DNA of 40,329 bases from Bacteroidales bacterium (GTDB taxonomy: Bacteria > Bacteroidota > Bacteroidia > Bacteroidales > Paludibacteraceae), in contig JALFGC010000052.1 in NCBI GenBank assembly GCA_022777485.1, positions 1-40,329 of the forward strand. The letters are read 5' to 3'. The first letter of the stretch is position 1; every line of letters starts with the position of its first letter. The notes under the pieces were generated by a model that was not told the origin of the DNA, made no database searches, and saw nothing but the letters and a program-made list of their open reading frames with translations. Positions 29,964 through 36,953 of the stretch are shown piece after piece. The position numbers and the translations under genes were made by a program.

Positions 29964-29999
29964 AGAAACAAAGAGCCCGAAGATTTCTCTTCGGGCTCT
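29964..29999 (-). terminator. Terminator of the minus-strand 5S-like unit
   Basis: AGAGCCCGAAGA and TCTTCGGGCTCT pair over 12 bp with a GAAA-type loop. On the minus strand TTTGTTT follows. It starts 3 nt after the 5S-like 3' end. Confidence 0.9.
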
Positions 30000-30002
30000 G
30001 AA

Positions 30003-30048
30003 AGTGGCGGCTACCTACTCTCCCACAACAAGTGCAGTACCATCGGCG
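30003..30048 (-). rRNA. 5S rRNA-like 3' domain, minus-strand copy (divergent/partial)
   Basis: The minus strand reads CGCCGATGGTACTGCACTTG, then TTGTGGGAGAGTAGG and TAGCCGCCACT: helices IV and V, loop E and the 3' strand of helix I of bacterial 5S rRNA. The 5' two-thirds of 5S (the CACCT...CCCAT...CGAAC region) is not found upstream. A GC-rich, low-complexity segment of about 110 nt stands there instead. AGTGGCG at about 30160 could pair with the 3' CGCCACT as helix I. A strong terminator follows. It may be an expanded or decayed 5S gene, or a 5S-derived RNA. Confidence 0.6.
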
Positions 30049-30193
30049 TGGCTGGGTGTGGGGCGGCTCTGCCGCCTCTCTGCCCCCTCCAGCGCGCCCG
30101 CGCGCATACCGCCGCCCGCCCTGCGCCTCTGATGCATTGCGAGAGGGGTACGGCGCCACTCACTCATGGGACATAAAAGATATGGGCTCTCTC
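30003..30193 (-). repeat. Inverted-repeat unit M containing the 5S-like domain
   Basis: Read on the minus strand, the unit shares ordered blocks with 31121-31391: CCATATCTTTTATG near the start (CCATAGATTTTATG in the other copy), ATGCATCAGAGGCGC with GGTATGCGCGCGGGCGCG in the middle, and the 5S-like end. Between the blocks the copies diverge. The two units face each other about 0.93 kb apart. They enclose the MmcQ/HARE-HTH pair. Confidence 0.75.
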
Positions 30194-30239
30194 AAAAAAG
30201 TCTCTCTCTCTTTTTCGAGCGATCATTGGGCGCACGAGG

Positions 30240-30584
30240 TTATAGTAGAGCTTGTCGCGTCTTGGGAAGTTTAGAGGTTATGAGCTGATAAGATGAGGTG
30301 ATTAGTTCTTGAACAAGGGTGTCGGGAAGTTTGTTCAGATAGAGATCGTTCCAATGCGTTTTGTTCATATGGTAGGCTGGACGAATACCATCATACCGGG
30401 CACGCAGTTCTGCACTCATTTCGGGTAGCAGTTTAACCGCTACGCGTGGTTCGGGTGCATCGAGTTGCATAAGCAAAAACCACTTGCCGAATATTCTCCA
30501 AGAAATCCAATTCTCCGCAAATAGTTCTTCCGTCACTTGGGTATTGATACCCAATGCAAATTCTCTGACTTGTTCTACATTCAT
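30240..30584 (-). CDS. MmcQ/YjbR-family protein
   Basis: The start is placed at 30584, where ATG overlaps the stop of the upstream gene (ATGA), rather than at 30596; this gives MNVEQVREFALGINTQVTEE. The MmcQ/YjbR fold is recognised by FAENWISWRIFGKWFLLMQL, VAVKLLPEMSAELRARY and GIRPAYHMNKTHWNDLYL. The family has a CyaY-like fold and is often annotated as DNA-binding, but its role is not settled. At 114 aa it is full length. It is translationally coupled to the HTH protein upstream, and both lie between the two 5S-like units. Confidence 0.85.
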   Translation of the reverse strand: MNVEQVREFALGINTQVTEELFAENWISWRIFGKWFLLMQLDAPEPRVAVKLLPEMSAELRARYDGIRPAYHMNKTHWNDLYLNKLPDTLVQELITSSYQLITSKLPKTRQALL

Positions 30585-30787
30585 ACCATTACACAAATCC
30601 GTCCGGCTTCCTTAGTAAAGATTGAGGGATAGCGGCAAATTACCACATAGACTTGGGCACTGGTAACAGGCTTTCCGTCCTTGCGGATATGCCAACCGTT
30701 GCGGTTAATTGCATCTGCTATTTGGTCGGTTGTCTTCCCATGACCATCCGACATAATGGCATATGTTATCGCTTCCTCTATTCGCAT
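30581..30787 (-). CDS. Small HARE-HTH-like DNA-binding protein
   Basis: A 68-aa protein, MRIEEAITYAIMSDGHGKT, with TDQIADAINRNGWHIRKDG and VTSAQVYVVICRYPSIF. This is the winged-helix HARE-HTH pattern found in restriction-associated and regulatory proteins, here as a stand-alone domain. It precedes MmcQ with a 4-bp overlap. A TACCTTTG motif lies 27 bp upstream on the minus strand, with no clear -33 partner. A hairpin (TTGTGT...ACACAA) lies further upstream. It may act as a small regulator of this pair. Confidence 0.75.
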   Translation of the reverse strand: MRIEEAITYAIMSDGHGKTTDQIADAINRNGWHIRKDGKPVTSAQVYVVICRYPSIFTKEAGRICVMV

Positions 30788-30813
30788 TTGTCATTGTTGT
30801 GCGTTTGCGAGTG

Positions 30814-30821
30814 CAAAGGTA
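30814..30821 (-). promoter_or_regulatory. -7 promoter element for the HARE-HTH/MmcQ pair
   Basis: TACCTTTG on the minus strand (30821 to 30814), 27 bp upstream of the ATG. No TTG is seen at the usual 20-21 nt upstream, so this is a weaker call than the other promoters. Confidence 0.5.
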
Positions 30822-30848
30822 GTAAAAAATCTGACATAGGTAAATTGA

Positions 30849-30880
30849 TTGTGTAGCCGTTTCGATTTTCGGCGACACAA
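30849..30880. promoter_or_regulatory. Hairpin/palindrome upstream of the HARE-HTH gene
   Basis: TTGTGT-A-GCCG, a 10-nt T-rich loop, CGGC-G-ACACAA: two stacked stems with a 1x1 mismatch. It could be an operator or the end of an upstream RNA. The rest of the 860-bp gap (30788-31646) holds AT-rich DNA, the plus-strand 5S-like unit and direct repeats; no gene is seen. Confidence 0.45.
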
Positions 30881-31290
30881 CGGGACGTAAACATAAAAAT
30901 CGTTTGCCTTATGCGTACACGCGCGAGGGGGCGCGCGTATATACCTTATTATAATATATAAGAAGGAAATGAAAGTTAGAGAGTTAGGGGTTAGAGAGAT
31001 GTATAAAAAAGGATCAAGTGAAACAATACAAGTGAAGCAAAATATACACAAGCATGTAAGCAAAGCGAACTCCTTATTAAAGAGAGACCAATAAAACAGA
31101 CGTACGATAGTACACCTTATTAGAGAGACCATAGATTTTATGTATTCATGAGGGAGGGGCGGTCGTTGGATTAAGAAAAATGCATCAGAGGCGCGGGGCG
31201 GGCGTCGGTATGCGCGCGGGCGCGAGAGAGAGCGAGGCGGGAGACAGCGGAGCGGAGAGGGGCGAGGGCAGCCGAGAGAGGGCACAGGGT

Positions 31291-31352
31291 CGTTAAGCTC
31301 AGCATCGCCGATGGTACTGCACTTGTTGTGGGAGAGTAGGTAGCCGCCACTT
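31291..31352 (+). rRNA. 5S rRNA-like 3' domain, plus-strand copy (divergent/partial)
   Basis: From CGTTAAGCTCAGCATCGCCG onward the text follows 5S rRNA, including the GTTAAGC block that the minus copy lacks, then GATGGTACTGCACTTGTTG and GGGAGAGTAGGTAGCCGCC. Upstream, GTTGGATT at about 31160 could pair with the AAGCTCAGC strand as helix II, and GGGGCGGT with the 3' end as helix I. The helix III/loop C part is replaced by about 120 nt of GC- and purine-rich sequence. Confidence 0.6.
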
Positions 31353-31354
31353 TG

Positions 31355-31390
31355 AGAACCTCTGAGATTCGTCTTGGGGGTTCTTTCTTT
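31355..31390 (+). terminator. Terminator of the plus-strand 5S-like unit
   Basis: AGAACCTCTGAGA and TCTTGGGGGTTCT pair over 13 positions with several G-T pairs around a TTCG tetraloop, followed by TTCTTT. The sequence differs from the terminator of the minus copy, while position and architecture are the same. Confidence 0.85.
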
Positions 31391-31610
31391 GTATAGCATG
31401 TCCTGCAATGCAAGCGGAAAGCCGACCCCATCCTATAAAGAAATTTTGCGGATCAAAGACAAATCCGTGAGCGAAGCGAACACCTTATTAAAGGGGGAAA
31501 GAAAAAATCGTTAAAACAGAAGTGAGTGAAACGAACTCCTTATTGACATACCTCGAACGAAGTGAGATAAGTTTCCTTGTGAAGAAAGGAAAAAGTGAGT
31601 ATAAATAGAT

Positions 31611-31646: not shown

Positions 31647-32768
31647 TTAAGAAAGTCTATTTAACGAAGCATTTTCTAATCGTACAGATGTGGCTTTTAG
31701 AGTTTGCAATCCTTCAACTCGGACATCAGCACCTTGATTAAAAGCTTCGGTGACTAATTGTGAATACTGTGCATTATCCAATTCTACTTTTACAGTAATT
31801 TTTTGTCCCTCATCTCCAATCGCTGCCACTGATATCATTAATTTATCCCGACTTTCTACTTCTGCAGCACCTGCAATATTTGTAATTTTCCCGTAATAGG
31901 CCTTAGTAATATTTTGTTCAGCCTTCGGCATGTATTTCTCTGCTATATATGTTACTTTATCAATATAACGAGGCTCTAGTTTAATCGCTGTAATCGGATT
32001 AGGAATTGGATTAGGAACATCCACATTCCAAGAGGCACTTATGTTTACATCCGTATTAGAATTTTCCTCGTACAATCTTGTTAGGGCATTAAGAAAGTTG
32101 ACACTTATATTGCCTGCTGCCACTTTCTCGTCCGCCAAGGAACTATTATCCTTTATTGATTGTTGAATAGTGTCTATATTTTCAAATATTCTGAGGTTAA
32201 TTTTCCTACTTAGCGGTAATTCTTCAGCATTCGGATCAAATAACGTATGTTGATAATATCCCAATGGACATATGATATTTAAGATATAGCTACCTATTTC
32301 GGTTTGACCGAATTTATAGGTTTCCATTTGTTTCACAACAGCTTGTGTCTGAATTTTCTTATGGTATGTTAATGGACTAATTATATCCACACATGTCGCA
32401 GACAATAATTCTTTGATATAGTCTATATTTGCCTGCATAGCATTAAAGGAGATTTCCCCTCTCGAAGTGAGATCATCTGCTATGCGCCATCTTAACAAAT
32501 CACTCGATGGATTGATTAATTTACTATAAACCGCCTGGATTGAGGACTTTTCTACAATGGATAATATCTTCAACGAATCCTTAATAACATCGTAATAATC
32601 GGAGAAATCTTTAGTTAGGGGTATATATACCACATCCTCACTCTCAGGATAGATAAACTGCTTGACCTTACCTCCAGCGAGATCAGACAACTGTCGCCAA
32701 TTTCTTTTCTCAAGATATTGGCATAACATTTGCATGTTAATTCGATCTATTTGTTGCTTATTATCCAT
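31647..32768 (-). CDS. Uncharacterised partner protein of the DUF4365 gene
   Basis: The protein has 373 aa and no signal peptide. I recognise the pattern of a widespread unnamed family seen also in Actinobacteria: YIPLTKDFSDYYDVIKDSLK (about 48-67), SSDLLRWRIADD (108-119), ISFNAMQANIDYIKELLSA, and the hallmark FGQTEIGSYILNIICPLG (173-190). The last 90 residues are beta-rich (YYGKITNIAG, KLMISVAAIGDEGQKITVKV, GADVRVEGLQTL) and may be a small nucleic-acid-binding barrel. It starts at the stop of the DUF4365 gene (TAATG overlap), so the two proteins are made together. No catalytic motif is evident. A role as sensor or regulator of a nuclease is a guess. Confidence 0.65.
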   Translation of the reverse strand: MDNKQQIDRINMQMLCQYLEKRNWRQLSDLAGGKVKQFIYPESEDVVYIPLTKDFSDYYDVIKDSLKILSIVEKSSIQAVYSKLINPSSDLLRWRIADDLTSRGEISFNAMQANIDYIKELLSATCVDIISPLTYHKKIQTQAVVKQMETYKFGQTEIGSYILNIICPLGYYQHTLFDPNAEELPLSRKINLRIFENIDTIQQSIKDNSSLADEKVAAGNISVNFLNALTRLYEENSNTDVNISASWNVDVPNPIPNPITAIKLEPRYIDKVTYIAEKYMPKAEQNITKAYYGKITNIAGAAEVESRDKLMISVAAIGDEGQKITVKVELDNAQYSQLVTEAFNQGADVRVEGLQTLKATSVRLENASLNRLS

Positions 32769-33286
32769 TACAACGGTTGTTCGTTGGCAACTTTAATCAT
32801 TATATCTTTCAGTGTCTCTGCTGTTAACAAATCAGCAGCAGAAAAATGTATACTAATAGTTTCTTGGTTGTCTGTAGGAGCCTGTCCCGCTAAACATTTC
32901 CAATACGCACACTTCGTTATTTTAAGGTAATCTGTAGTTTGTTCTATCCATTGATTTACATCTTCATGCATTTGAAGAACAATTAGGATAAGAGGTTTAA
33001 AACGATTCTCATCGATAAGCGATCTATAATTATCAACCTCTAATGCATATGATATTGTTCCGTCATTATTACTATGAATTTTGGCATATGAAGATTTTAA
33101 CTGCACTTGTATAGAAGGAGAATGTTTCTTGCAATTATCAGTAGGGCATCCGCTACAATTAATAGTTATATCGTATCCATCATTATCATGCTCAACACTC
33201 CCTATACTATAGCCATTGACAGCACACAGAGCGCGCACGTAAGCCACACTCATATCCTCCATTCGTAATTGTTGTGTATTGGGCAT
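32768..33286 (-). CDS. DUF4365 PD-(D/E)XK nuclease-like protein
   Basis: The 172 aa match DUF4365. A leading helix (MEDMSVAYVRALCAVNGYSI) is followed by the Asp strand NDGYDITINCSG and the QVQLKSS strand, which together give the D...QxK active-site pattern of the PD-(D/E)XK fold. Between the two strands lies CSGCPTDNCKKH, a Cys/His cluster (C-x2-C-x4-C-x3-H) that could bind zinc. The C-terminal half (ITKCAYWKCLAG, ISIHFSAADLLT) is typical of the domain. Such proteins are common in defence islands. It overlaps the 373-aa gene by one base and is driven by a clear promoter at 33390-33359. Confidence 0.75.
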   Translation of the reverse strand: MPNTQQLRMEDMSVAYVRALCAVNGYSIGSVEHDNDGYDITINCSGCPTDNCKKHSPSIQVQLKSSYAKIHSNNDGTISYALEVDNYRSLIDENRFKPLILIVLQMHEDVNQWIEQTTDYLKITKCAYWKCLAGQAPTDNQETISIHFSAADLLTAETLKDIMIKVANEQPL

Positions 33287-33358
33287 ATTGATATCTATAA
33301 TCTTTCGTTCGCAATACCACCACTTGGAATGATATTGTTTTCATTTACAAATTTGCTG

Positions 33359-33390
33359 CAAAGATAATGCATTTCTTTCAAATATACAAA
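33359..33390 (-). promoter_or_regulatory. Promoter for the DUF4365 operon
   Basis: Minus-strand TTTG (G at 33387) and TATCTTTG (33366 to 33359), spaced 21 nt. It is divergent from the abi promoter at 33499-33530. Confidence 0.75.
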
Positions 33391-33498
33391 TAAATTTACA
33401 TTTTGTGGCGATTTGAGAGGGTTATGATGTATAAAAATGAAAAATAATCACATTATAAACAAAAACTACACCTTTTTACTGACAAATTTGATGAAAAG

Positions 33499-33530
33499 TT
33501 TGCACATATCAGAGTTTTTAAGTATCTTTG
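33499..33530 (+). promoter_or_regulatory. Promoter for the Abi gene
   Basis: TTTG (G at 33502) and TATCTTTG at 33523, spaced 21 nt. The leader before the ATG at 33559 is about 20-25 nt. Confidence 0.75.
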
Positions 33531-33558
33531 CAACCTAATTTGAAAAAAGTTAACAAGA

Positions 33559-34446
33559 ATGCCTAAGAAAGCGACATATCTTCATGAACAGATCGCCCTG
33601 CTGCGCTCACGCGGAATGGTTATTACCGATGAGCAGAAAGCAGAGGAGATTTTATTGGATGTGGGTTACTACCGTTTGGGCTTCTACGCCTACCCTTTTG
33701 AAATCAACCCACAGCAACAACCGCGAGACCACACATATAAACCAGATACAGACTTCAACCAGATTGTTGATCTTTACTACTTTGACCATGATTTGCGTCA
33801 TATACTTATGCGTTATATCAGCCGAATAGAAGTCAACATCCGTACGTTCATCACTTACACGGTTAGTAACTATTATAAGAATGATCCAACATGGTTTGTT
33901 AACTCCAAAGTAGTTAAGGCTGATTTCCGCAACAACTTTGAGCAGAAGATATACAGTACATTGCGTCAGAACCCGTGCATTGCCAACCATCATCATCGCT
34001 ATCATAATGATCGCTATGCTCCGGCATGGAAGACGTTGGAGTTCATGACACTTGGCAGTATTATCACATTATACGAAAGCCTATTGGATCAGAACCTCAA
34101 GCTACAAATCGCGAAACATTATGGTTTGAATACGATTCCTTTGTTTGAAAACTATTTGCAAACGCTAAAAGTTATCCGCAATGCATGCGCTCACGGAAAC
34201 CATATATTTGATTTGCGGTTAATAAAAGCGGTTAAGAAAGGACCTCTTCAGCACTTCGAAGCTGAACATCGTCACGATATCTATGCAGTGCTTTTAGTAC
34301 TCTTGTATTTCTTGCATCATATATCGGAAAATCGTGAGCAAGAACTACGAATTGCACTAGAAAAACACCTAAAACAGCCAAAAAACAAAGAAAATGTAAT
34401 TATTTTGAACGATTTTTTGCAAAAAGTTTTGCTATATCAAAAATAA
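33559..34446 (+). CDS. Abi_2 family (AbiD/AbiF-type) HEPN abortive-infection protein
   Basis: The 295 aa match the Abi_2 (AbiD/AbiF) family: LLRSRGMVITDEQKAEEILLD and GYYRLGFYAYPFE at the start, then IVDLYYFDHDLRHILMRYIS and RIEVNIRTFITYTVSNYY. LEFMTLGSIITLYESL precedes the HEPN RNase motif VIRNACAHGNHIF (R-x4-H, about residues 213-218). HEPN proteins of this class cleave RNA and act as toxins in abortive infection. The promoter is good and the gene stands alone between minus-strand operons, with no protein antitoxin next to it. A promoter inside its 3' end starts a structured small RNA. The sequence is AT-rich compared with the first 28 kb. Confidence 0.9.
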   Translation: MPKKATYLHEQIALLRSRGMVITDEQKAEEILLDVGYYRLGFYAYPFEINPQQQPRDHTYKPDTDFNQIVDLYYFDHDLRHILMRYISRIEVNIRTFITYTVSNYYKNDPTWFVNSKVVKADFRNNFEQKIYSTLRQNPCIANHHHRYHNDRYAPAWKTLEFMTLGSIITLYESLLDQNLKLQIAKHYGLNTIPLFENYLQTLKVIRNACAHGNHIFDLRLIKAVKKGPLQHFEAEHRHDIYAVLLVLLYFLHHISENREQELRIALEKHLKQPKNKENVIILNDFLQKVLLYQK

Positions 34447-34458
34447 TTACTACCTTTG
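34428..34458 (+). promoter_or_regulatory. Promoter of the abi-associated small RNA
   Basis: TTTG (G at 34431, inside the last codons of the abi gene) and TACCTTTG at 34451, spaced 20 nt. The -7 box begins 5 bp after the stop codon. Confidence 0.8.
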
Positions 34459-34464
34459 CACCGT

Positions 34465-34557
34465 CAATTGAGACAGTGTCCGTATTGGCAGGTCCAATAT
34501 CTACACTTAAAAAGGTGAAAGACAACGCTCCGCGAGATAGAGCGTTGTCGCTTTTTT
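34465..34557 (+). ncRNA. Structured small RNA immediately downstream of the Abi gene
   Basis: The promoter at 34428-34458 predicts a start near 34465 and the terminator predicts an end near 34557, giving about 93 nt with no plausible ORF. The first structure is a two-part hairpin: AGTGT (34475) pairs with ACACT (34503), and GTATTGG (34482) with CCAATAT (34494), separated by a 2x2 internal loop. The terminator stem follows. Published work has linked AbiF-type HEPN proteins to neighbouring conserved RNAs acting as antitoxins; this RNA is a candidate of that kind. The boundaries are predictions. Confidence 0.7.
34521..34557 (+). terminator. Terminator of the abi-associated small RNA
   Basis: GACAACGCTC and GAGCGTTGTC form a perfect 10-bp stem with a 9-nt loop, followed by GCTTTTTT. 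Confidence 0.92.
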
Positions 34558-34670
34558 ATACTTTTAAGTCATCCGAAAAAGGAATTCCTGATTTTGAAAA
34601 AAGCAATTATTGCAGCAGAATCGCCACACCAGATTCCTCCATTATAGCATTTACTTTCGCCTTTATTCCA

Positions 34671-35675
34671 TTAGACTATGCTGTCCCCTTTTTTGAGAAC
34701 ATCTGGTATTAAATTTTCCAACTGGAGCGTTTGCATATATTCAACATATGATATTACTTCTTTATTTTCCCTTTTCTCTTTTTCCGCTACATTTTTTGCT
34801 GCATTTATCATTTTGTTGTCACCACTAACTAATACAATTCTCTCTCCGTCTATACTTTTTCCTGCTGCAAATAATATTAAAGTGTCCCATATCGTATTTA
34901 GTCGAGAACCTTTTTGAGGTATAGCACTTCTTTCTTTTAATCCTATAATCATTGATCTAAATTGTTCTGTGGGAATTTTATTCTGAGACACAATAAGTTC
35001 ATACATTTCAATTGTAGGTTTAAGTAGTATCTGACAATCTCTATATAGTGCTTGTTGAAGAGCCATTATTATTACAGAAGCCATAAAAATATCTAATGCA
35101 TATTCATTTTCAACATACTCTTTCAACAATGCCTTATTTATCTTATTTTGCTCCTTCGATATTGATTTATTTTTCCTTAGCCAAGTGTCGTGGATATACT
35201 GTAAAAGGATTCCAAACTGCTGTTCAGTCTCCTGTATTGTATAATATATATTATTAATGTTATGTTTGAATTCATTATTTAGAGTTGTCATTTGCTCTAT
35301 TGATGATAACTGAGAAAGTTGGAAAAGCATTCGTCCAACATATATTTGATTATTTATAAGACGAGAATAATCAAAATCTACTAATTCTTTTGCAAGTTGT
35401 ACCCAAATTTGTGGTAGTAATCCATAATTTTTTTTGTCTCCACAATGAAAATACATTGCTTGAGACGCACAAAAACGAGATTTATCATCTGCTGACATCG
35501 GCTCCTTTAAGTGCGATAAGAGTTCTTGTGCTACTGTATCACATATCAATGCATGAATAGGCTCTGAATATTTAGTCTCCGCTGAACGAAGAAGATTCAC
35601 ACGTTGCCTTATTGTTTCATTATCTTTATTATCCGCTAAATAAAGATATGCATTTGTGTCAAATATAACAATCAT
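34671..35675 (-). CDS. PIN-domain protein with helical insertion
   Basis: The 334 aa start with MIVIFDTNAYLYLADN, strand 1 of a PIN nuclease with its first Asp. A conserved Glu follows in CDTVAQELLSHL. The last acidic residues lie far downstream in NTIWDTLILFAAG and IVLVSGDNKMINAAK. The roughly 200 residues between are mostly helical (LINNQIYVGRMLFQLSQL, YTIQETEQQFGILLQYI), much longer than in VapC toxins (about 130 aa total). PIN domains cleave RNA, so an RNase role is likely. No small antitoxin gene is adjacent. A 231-bp AT-rich gap without a recognised promoter separates it from the PIN_8 operon upstream. Confidence 0.75.
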   Translation of the reverse strand: MIVIFDTNAYLYLADNKDNETIRQRVNLLRSAETKYSEPIHALICDTVAQELLSHLKEPMSADDKSRFCASQAMYFHCGDKKNYGLLPQIWVQLAKELVDFDYSRLINNQIYVGRMLFQLSQLSSIEQMTTLNNEFKHNINNIYYTIQETEQQFGILLQYIHDTWLRKNKSISKEQNKINKALLKEYVENEYALDIFMASVIIMALQQALYRDCQILLKPTIEMYELIVSQNKIPTEQFRSMIIGLKERSAIPQKGSRLNTIWDTLILFAAGKSIDGERIVLVSGDNKMINAAKNVAEKEKRENKEVISYVEYMQTLQLENLIPDVLKKGDSIV

Positions 35676-35906
35676 AATAAAATTATAAAAAAATATTTTC
35701 TAAATTAATATATTTATAATCTCAGTGCACATTTCATTTAGATTCTTCTATGTTAAGAGTTGATAACATTCCCTTATATATTACGACTTATAATCTTTTC
35801 GGGGGCATAGTTACTATTTTTTGAGACATACATATTCATTTGAAAATTGCTCATAGCGTTGCAGTTTTAACAACCTCGACCGTCAAAGATTTTTAAGCTG
35901 TCATAC

Positions 35907-36953
35907 TTATTTATCTTCTTTAGGAGAGACAGACACATCCGGAGTCTTTTTTTCAGGATTTCTCTCTTGAAGAGATTGAGACAAATCAAATTTAACATTC
36001 CCAAAATCTATATCTTTGAGCGCATCAAAATTTATATATCGTTGCCATAATTCCACATGTTTAGATATATCTGGCAAACGTATCTCTTGTATCGTATCTA
36101 TTTCCTCTTTATTAAATACTTTTCCTGTTTCATTAGCATAATTAATAAAATCTTGTAATGGATACATAAGGATATGCCCATTAGAAATAGCTTGAAATTC
36201 TTTTAGCAAATGAGGATGAAGCCCACATTTTCTTCCATGCAAAATCCATTGCCAATCTCCCTTGTTGAGATCACGTGAAACAAATACTATAGAACTTTCT
36301 GGGTGTGCAGCAGCAAATTTTAAAATTTCTTTCCATATAATCAAATCGCCATACTTATTTCCATTGGTTTTATTACTATCTTCATGTCCAGGAGGTTCTT
36401 TCAATCCAAATCTTCTTGCTCCTTCTTCTTCAATTTGTCTTATTTCATCTTCTGAAAATTGTTCTAAAACTTTATCTCCCAAAAAGTCTGCAAGTTCGTC
36501 TGGCAACTCCCATGTTTCTAATTGTTGCGATATAAAATTTTTCTCCTGGGTTATTTTATTTCGAAATACTCTGAGTGCTTTCGTAATATGCTTCTTAAGC
36601 ATTTTTGCTAAATGTTCATATTTAAACAAATCTTTAGAATTATCCTCTATCAGTTTGATTATATAATCTGCTGTGATTTTTTCAAATAATGTAGAATATA
36701 GGCTATCACATTCTATCATTATATCGTACACATGTTCATGATATTCTTCTGCTACATGATAGGGTATCTTTATTTGATTTTCATATTTCTTAAATAACCT
36801 TATTACTTTATTTGATACGGTTTTTCCCAGTCTATAAATATCAAGTAAAGCATTTGTATCAAAAATAAAATAAGTGTCTGGACTATTAAATATAGCCTTC
36901 TTTTGTTCCTGTTTTAGAGGGTAATATGCTTTAAATTTTGTTTTCATACTCAA
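35907..36953 (-). CDS. PIN_8-type (PIN-like) protein
   Basis: The N-terminus (FKAYYPLKQEQKKAIFNSPD, then TYFIFDTNALLDIYRLGK) is the PIN_8 opening with the first Asp. IPYHVAEEYHEHVYDIM holds the Glu. A coiled helical middle of about 130 residues follows (LAKMLKKHITKALRVFRNK, FSEDEIRQIEEEGARRFG). The end of the nuclease fold is KYGDLIIWKEILKFAA and IVFVSRDLNKGDWQWI. At 348 aa it is normal for PIN_8, a family found in restriction and defence islands. Its start overlaps the small upstream gene by 4 bp (ATGA), so they are coupled. The tail is charged and probably disordered. Confidence 0.82.
   Translation of the reverse strand: MSMKTKFKAYYPLKQEQKKAIFNSPDTYFIFDTNALLDIYRLGKTVSNKVIRLFKKYENQIKIPYHVAEEYHEHVYDIMIECDSLYSTLFEKITADYIIKLIEDNSKDLFKYEHLAKMLKKHITKALRVFRNKITQEKNFISQQLETWELPDELADFLGDKVLEQFSEDEIRQIEEEGARRFGLKEPPGHEDSNKTNGNKYGDLIIWKEILKFAAAHPESSIVFVSRDLNKGDWQWILHGRKCGLHPHLLKEFQAISNGHILMYPLQDFINYANETGKVFNKEEIDTIQEIRLPDISKHVELWQRYINFDALKDIDFGNVKFDLSQSLQERNPEKKTPDVSVSPKEDK

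Follow-up and report, generated by a model that had tools for sequence, protein, structure and literature searches.

Within the window, by which we mean the whole stretch of 40,329 nucleotides from a Paludibacteraceae contig, two units that face outward lie at 29973-30193 (-) and 31121-31390 (+), with a gene of the YjbR family and a second small open reading frame between them (Table 1). Each unit consists, from the inside outward, of an inner block (GAGAGA..CCATA..TTTT), a GC-rich stretch that begins at ATGCATCAGAGGCGC, a copy of the 3' end of 5S rRNA (the tip, X) and a terminator; in the right unit a purine-rich stretch is interposed between the GC-rich stretch and the 5S part. A 48-nt 5S-like tail, CGCCGATGG...GCCGCCACTTT, is identical in both units (30001-30048 (-) and 31306-31353 (+)), and the similarity to 5S extends further in the right unit, from about 31284 (CAGGGTCGTTAAGCTCAGCATCGCC...), such that positions 31284-31360 (query 161-237) match the genuine 5S genes of the genus by up to 97%. 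A preliminary description of this DNA had reported the two oppositely oriented 5S-like units, terminators that differ in sequence and match in position, and shared upstream blocks; each of these was recovered here, the terminators both folding strongly and the blocks being present in both units by alignment. The helix I that had been suggested to close the unit was not confirmed: the whole right unit folds no better than shuffled sequences (z -0.32). The left unit does fold better than its shuffles (z -2.98), but the folded stretch includes the terminator.

Table 1. Features of the cassette in the window and the basis on which each was assigned.
Feature	Position	Strand	Basis
Terminator hairpin beyond left 5S-like tip	29973..30000	-	Folding -22.5 kcal/mol, z -7.05
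Left tip X', 5S rRNA 3' end copy	30001..30048	-	Identical to right tip; sub-cut-off Rfam 5S match
Left arm, GC-rich, ATGCATCAGAGGCGC outward to tip, long terminal inverted repeat	30049..30137	-	Alignment with right arm
Left inner block GAGAGAGCCCATATCTTTT	30175..30193	-	Pattern match common to other cassettes
Cargo gene, YjbR family	30240..30596	-	PF04237, E 1.2e-22
Second small cargo ORF, 68 aa	30581..30787	-	No Pfam match; also in L070 and L078 cassettes
Dispersed motif GARCWCCTTATTR, 4 copies (31067, 31110, 31478, 31533)	31067..31545	+	Inside and outside right end; 0.26 copies expected
Right inner block TAGAGAGACCATAGATTTT	31121..31139	+	Pattern match; left and right blocks unlike, which also holds for the majority of pairs elsewhere
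Right arm, GC-rich then purine-rich terminal inverted repeat	31180..31283	+	Aligns with left arm; purine-rich outward strand
Right tip X, 5S rRNA 3' end copy, ~70 nt	31284..31353	+	Up to 97% match to genuine 5S genes
Terminator beyond right tip	31354..31390	+	Folding -17.5 kcal/mol, z -3.3; same terminator and downstream text at genuine 5S in L037 and arms in L064, L077, L080

Relation to 5S rRNA

The two units resemble the Rfam 5S family (RF00001) in the sequence of the 3' domain and differ from it in that they are without the 5' half and score 22.7 and 20.8 bits, against a gathering cut-off of 38. A match of a whole unit to an ordinary 5S model, which the preliminary description had named as telling against it, was obtained above the cut-off for neither. 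A search of the window's genome for normal 5S genes returned none above the Rfam cut-off, which we take to be an assembly gap, ordinary 5S genes being present in relatives. Of the 20 types of arm 5S tail, about half are changed at positions that are invariant in 16 types of genuine 5S tail, so that the universally kept positions of RF00001 are not conserved across the arm tails, and no known Rfam family matches the arms. On the sub-cut-off scores, the ordinary 5S genes of relatives and the changed invariant positions, the reading as an expanded or degenerate 5S gene was rejected.

The preliminary description had proposed either 5S genes expanded by an insertion or 5S-derived RNAs with another use. 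Its view of the units as paired and 5S-derived, with conserved 3' ends and terminators of which the 3' end matters, stands. Expanded 5S genes are not supported, given the ordinary 5S genes of relatives and the replacement of the 5S tip elsewhere by the 3' ends of rpoC, aspS, nqrF and PFOR; nor is a 5S-like RNA function, given that about half of the arm tail types break 5S-invariant positions. Furthermore, as the tips are exchangeable between host genes, the 5S text is not there to make a 5S-like RNA. The two units are the outward-facing ends of one small gene cassette of a kind that moves among rumen bacteria, and not odd 5S genes.

Modules of a related kind were also observed behind intact genes. 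Tandem modules of about 190 nt follow genuine 5S genes (L018:930-1520 (-), also L017, L029, L045, L050 and L058), each ending in a short 5S tail with its own terminator, and no Rfam family matches these modules; those of L018 begin with an inverted copy of the 5S tail, giving long hairpins around the terminators. A module of similar make stands behind nqrF at L271:8680-9154 (G139:C35), ending in a second nqrF 3' end with a different terminator.

Recurrence and structure of the cassettes

The comparison set comprised 150 genomes of the same genus, and the pattern scan covered 151. The inner-block pattern was found in about 50 arms in 26 of the 151 genomes (2 matches for the reversed control), and all 18 of the 18 arm pairs lying within 2 kb face outward. 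Across 393 genomes from the rest of the order, the arm pattern gave only single matches at chance level, and on these scans the arms appear essentially confined to one genus; in a separate pattern scan of public genomes, the matches fell in bins of Bacteroidales and Paludibacteraceae that several assembly projects had produced, with a single match in another group. Searching other genomes with a shared block, as the preliminary description had advised, thus places the unit in dozens of locations, and chance is thereby excluded for it.

The cassettes carry terminal inverted repeats, as transposons and MITEs do, although in some arms no X can be recognised at the end (L177, L178). In the 80 nt that directly precede the 5S part, the outward strand of the arms is purine-rich, with a mean of 0.73 (34 arms); a purine content of at least 0.75 is reached by only 0.14% of random 80-mers from the window. 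At loci other than the window, the arms of one cassette are more alike than the arms of different cassettes. When scored over the 110 nt adjoining the 5S part, whole-arm ranking being confounded by the shared inner blocks, 10 of 14 cassettes had the partner arm as the best match, and the partner similarity, summed over cassettes, stood above all of 20,000 permutations (0/20,000 as high). This likeness could stem from gene conversion or template switching. The motif GARCWCCTTATTR of the right end in Table 1 is also present beside other cassettes, and the dispersed motif (C)GTGAGCGAAGCGAACACCTTATTA recurs within and just outside many of them. To the right of the window cassette, the region 31647-36953 contains DUF4365, Abi_2 and PIN-like genes and resembles a defence island.

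None of the cassettes was found to encode a recombinase, transposase or reverse transcriptase, and no integrase was seen near the arms, whose repeats are inverted where an ICE or IME would have an integrase and direct repeats. Neither a target-site duplication nor a clean empty site was established; the terminators and flanks differ between copies, and the outer boundary is not definable. Carriage by phage or plasmid was considered and rejected: arms were absent from viral contigs and nitroreductase cargo from plasmids, and the only matches were short and weak, resembling 5S tails or low-complexity sequence. A small circle integrated beside an rRNA operon was likewise set aside, as inspection of up to about 10 kb of flanking DNA showed no complete 5S except in one scaffold-gap case (L113, L183).

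Cargo and horizontal spread

The DNA between the arms holds YjbR and an HTH-like open reading frame (as in the window), a nitroreductase, a 172-aa protein that matches no Pfam family, or no clear gene. Two further contents, a cation efflux protein and a pair of aldehyde dehydrogenase and short-chain dehydrogenase, have an arm or a 5S-like tail on one side and another tail on the other. Between species, cargo identity is 93-97% where that of the core methyltransferase, the one core gene used as yardstick for divergence, is 42-73%. The nitroreductase cargo is 93.3-94.6% identical in amino acid sequence among G045, G142 and G153 (methyltransferase 52.5-73.3%), and the YjbR cargo of G000 and G047 is 96.5% identical (methyltransferase 52.5%). 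The YjbR of the window is found at 88-97% amino acid identity in 6 other genomes, all 6 of which have arms. At least one arm accompanies 10/10 near-identical nitroreductases and 0/15 diverged ones, and the corresponding counts for YjbR are 7/7 and 0/3. Some of these genomes also agree at about 95-98% in the non-coding DNA that adjoins the inner blocks. Both the status of these units as a cassette and the horizontal spread of the cargo together with the arms are well supported.

Two further observations concern the vicinity of the cassettes. G050, G042 and G142 have a 2.5-kb stretch beside a cassette (L098, L100, L245, L249) in common at 100% identity, of which G157 shares 0.66 kb; this may reflect either very recent transfer or cross-binning. 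At L116:1-930 (G142:C33), a transposase, IS110-like by eye, stands in place of the left end of the nitroreductase cassette.

Tip exchange and neighbouring DNA

The usual tip is the 3' end of 5S rRNA, and elsewhere it is that of rpoC, aspS, nqrF or PFOR (pyruvate oxidoreductase), gene identities that were checked with NCBIfam on intact or longer copies. Both tips are the aspS 3' end in the nitroreductase cassette of G139, the nqrF 3' end in the YjbR cassette of G151 and the rpoC 3' end in a cargo-less pair of G117; one aspS-tipped arm is left in G142, and one arm of G084 has a PFOR end. X is exchangeable between different host genes.

The DNA beyond the tips is informative in several genomes. 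One (the left) aspS tip of G139 adjoins efp, the place of intact aspS in G151, and the intact aspS of G139 lies on another contig, with downstream text in common with the other aspS tip. Behind one rpoC tip of G117 come the DNA and the next gene that follow intact rpoC in G050; G117 also has an intact rpoC, which carries the terminator of the other rpoC tip. Intact aspS and rpoC are thus present in addition to the tips, as with ICE/IME insertion at gene 3' ends that keeps the gene intact. For 1.5 kb beyond a 5S tip, the DNA of G142 matches at 86-90% identity the DNA behind complete 5S in G050 and G076, and the 5S-tipped arms of G048/G078 and of G051 give similar matches to DNA behind complete 5S genes in relatives. 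G048 and G051 have their cassette type and left flank (about 90%) in common, and their right flanks match the DNA behind genuine 5S of different relatives. Last, G048 and G078 agree at 97.3% across 1.9 kb that takes in the terminator, the tip and about 160 nt of arm, after which the cassettes are different. In the rpoC, the aspS and several 5S cases, X is attached to the native downstream neighbour of its gene, and in G048/G078 a single site is occupied by different cassettes, one having replaced the other, and the sequences part within the arm. These neighbour patterns fit homologous recombination at X or in the arm, and inversions between X copies would predict them equally. All of the genomes appear to be metagenome bins in which contigs often end in arms and repeats can be misjoined, and as such the neighbour swaps at X are to be read with caution. 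A comparison with the DNA behind 30 genuine 5S genes did not find the genes that flank the window cassette, and it is the other loci that support docking.

Discussion

It is likely, in our estimation, that these are non-autonomous mobile cassettes that carry copies of a host-gene 3' end at both tips and use them as homology for recombination, and docking probably proceeds by homologous recombination at gene 3' ends. The layout is terminator'-X'-arm'-cargo-arm-X-terminator, in which the arms are long terminal inverted repeats and the outer tip X is a copy of a host gene 3' end, 5S rRNA in the case of the window. X, being homologous to the end of the host gene, would serve as the stretch over which the two recombine, and an exchange at X would join the cassette to whatever DNA is downstream, such that terminators and neighbours would come to differ between copies. 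The host gene would be left intact because X extends past the stop codon or the end of the rRNA and has a terminator with it. The two arms of one cassette may be kept alike by gene conversion or inverted duplication, and any cell's own recombination system could suffice.

A classical transposon-type element without a transposase, moved in trans and having captured gene ends by chance into its long inverted repeats, would account for the distinct left and right inner blocks, the long terminal inverted repeats, the varied cargo and the purine- and GC-rich arms. We nonetheless regard it as unlikely, as no target-site duplication has been established and X is always an outward gene 3' end, several copies of which sit on the native neighbour of the gene, a situation that transposition does not predict. 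A larger site-specific integrative element of the ICE/IME type, replacing gene 3' ends and having the arms as its attachment region, is very improbable. ICEs do integrate at the 3' ends of housekeeping genes, including that of a tRNA synthetase (PMC4701971), and the intact rpoC and aspS carry the second terminator of the tip; however, ICE insertion yields direct and not inverted copies of the gene end, there is no integrase near the arms, and five different target genes would have to serve one family of ends. That each arm is transcribed outward into a 5S-derived regulatory RNA is scarcely credible: the conserved positions of terminator and 5S domain in both units speak for it, whereas 5S can be replaced by mRNA 3' ends, 5S-invariant positions are changed in about half of the arm tail types, and the right unit has no extra folding stability.

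Known systems share some of these properties. ICE/IME sites in Streptococcus lie at gene 3' ends, e.g. those of rpsI, lysS and guaA, and the likeness to the present cassettes is in the use of housekeeping-gene 3' ends with the gene spared (PMC4701971); the present cassettes differ in their inverted copies at both ends, their size of about 1-2 kb, the lack of an integrase and the use of many different genes by one cassette family. Non-autonomous inverted-repeat elements with passenger genes, such as MITEs and the Tn3-derived TIMEs (PMC4133298), likewise have inverted ends around cargo and no transposase of their own, whereas the ends described here are long, resemble one another in each cassette and bear exchangeable fragments of host genes as tips. 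We found no description of cassettes of the present kind among open-licence papers. Pack-MULE and foldback elements of eukaryotes capture host gene fragments near long inverted repeats; unlike these, the present cassettes are bacterial, and the captured part is always an outward gene 3' end, from the same gene at both tips.

Tentatively, and with somewhat less than even confidence, we propose that these cassettes may constitute a new kind of bacterial mobile unit, one that would spread without a recombinase of its own by means of inverted, exchangeable host-gene 3'-end tips, each with a terminator, and that host recombination would dock, swap and re-dock at rRNA operons and essential genes while leaving these unbroken, the chromosome being rearranged as a by-product. 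If true, this would represent a route of gene exchange, either recombinase-free or with the recombinase supplied in trans, in an uncultured rumen lineage, with an evident way to insert into essential genes harmlessly, and it would account for the rearranged neighbourhoods of the rRNA operon, rpoC and aspS in the genus. It would also offer a signature by which such units may be sought in other bacteria, namely outward pairs of truncated gene 3' ends flanking cargo.
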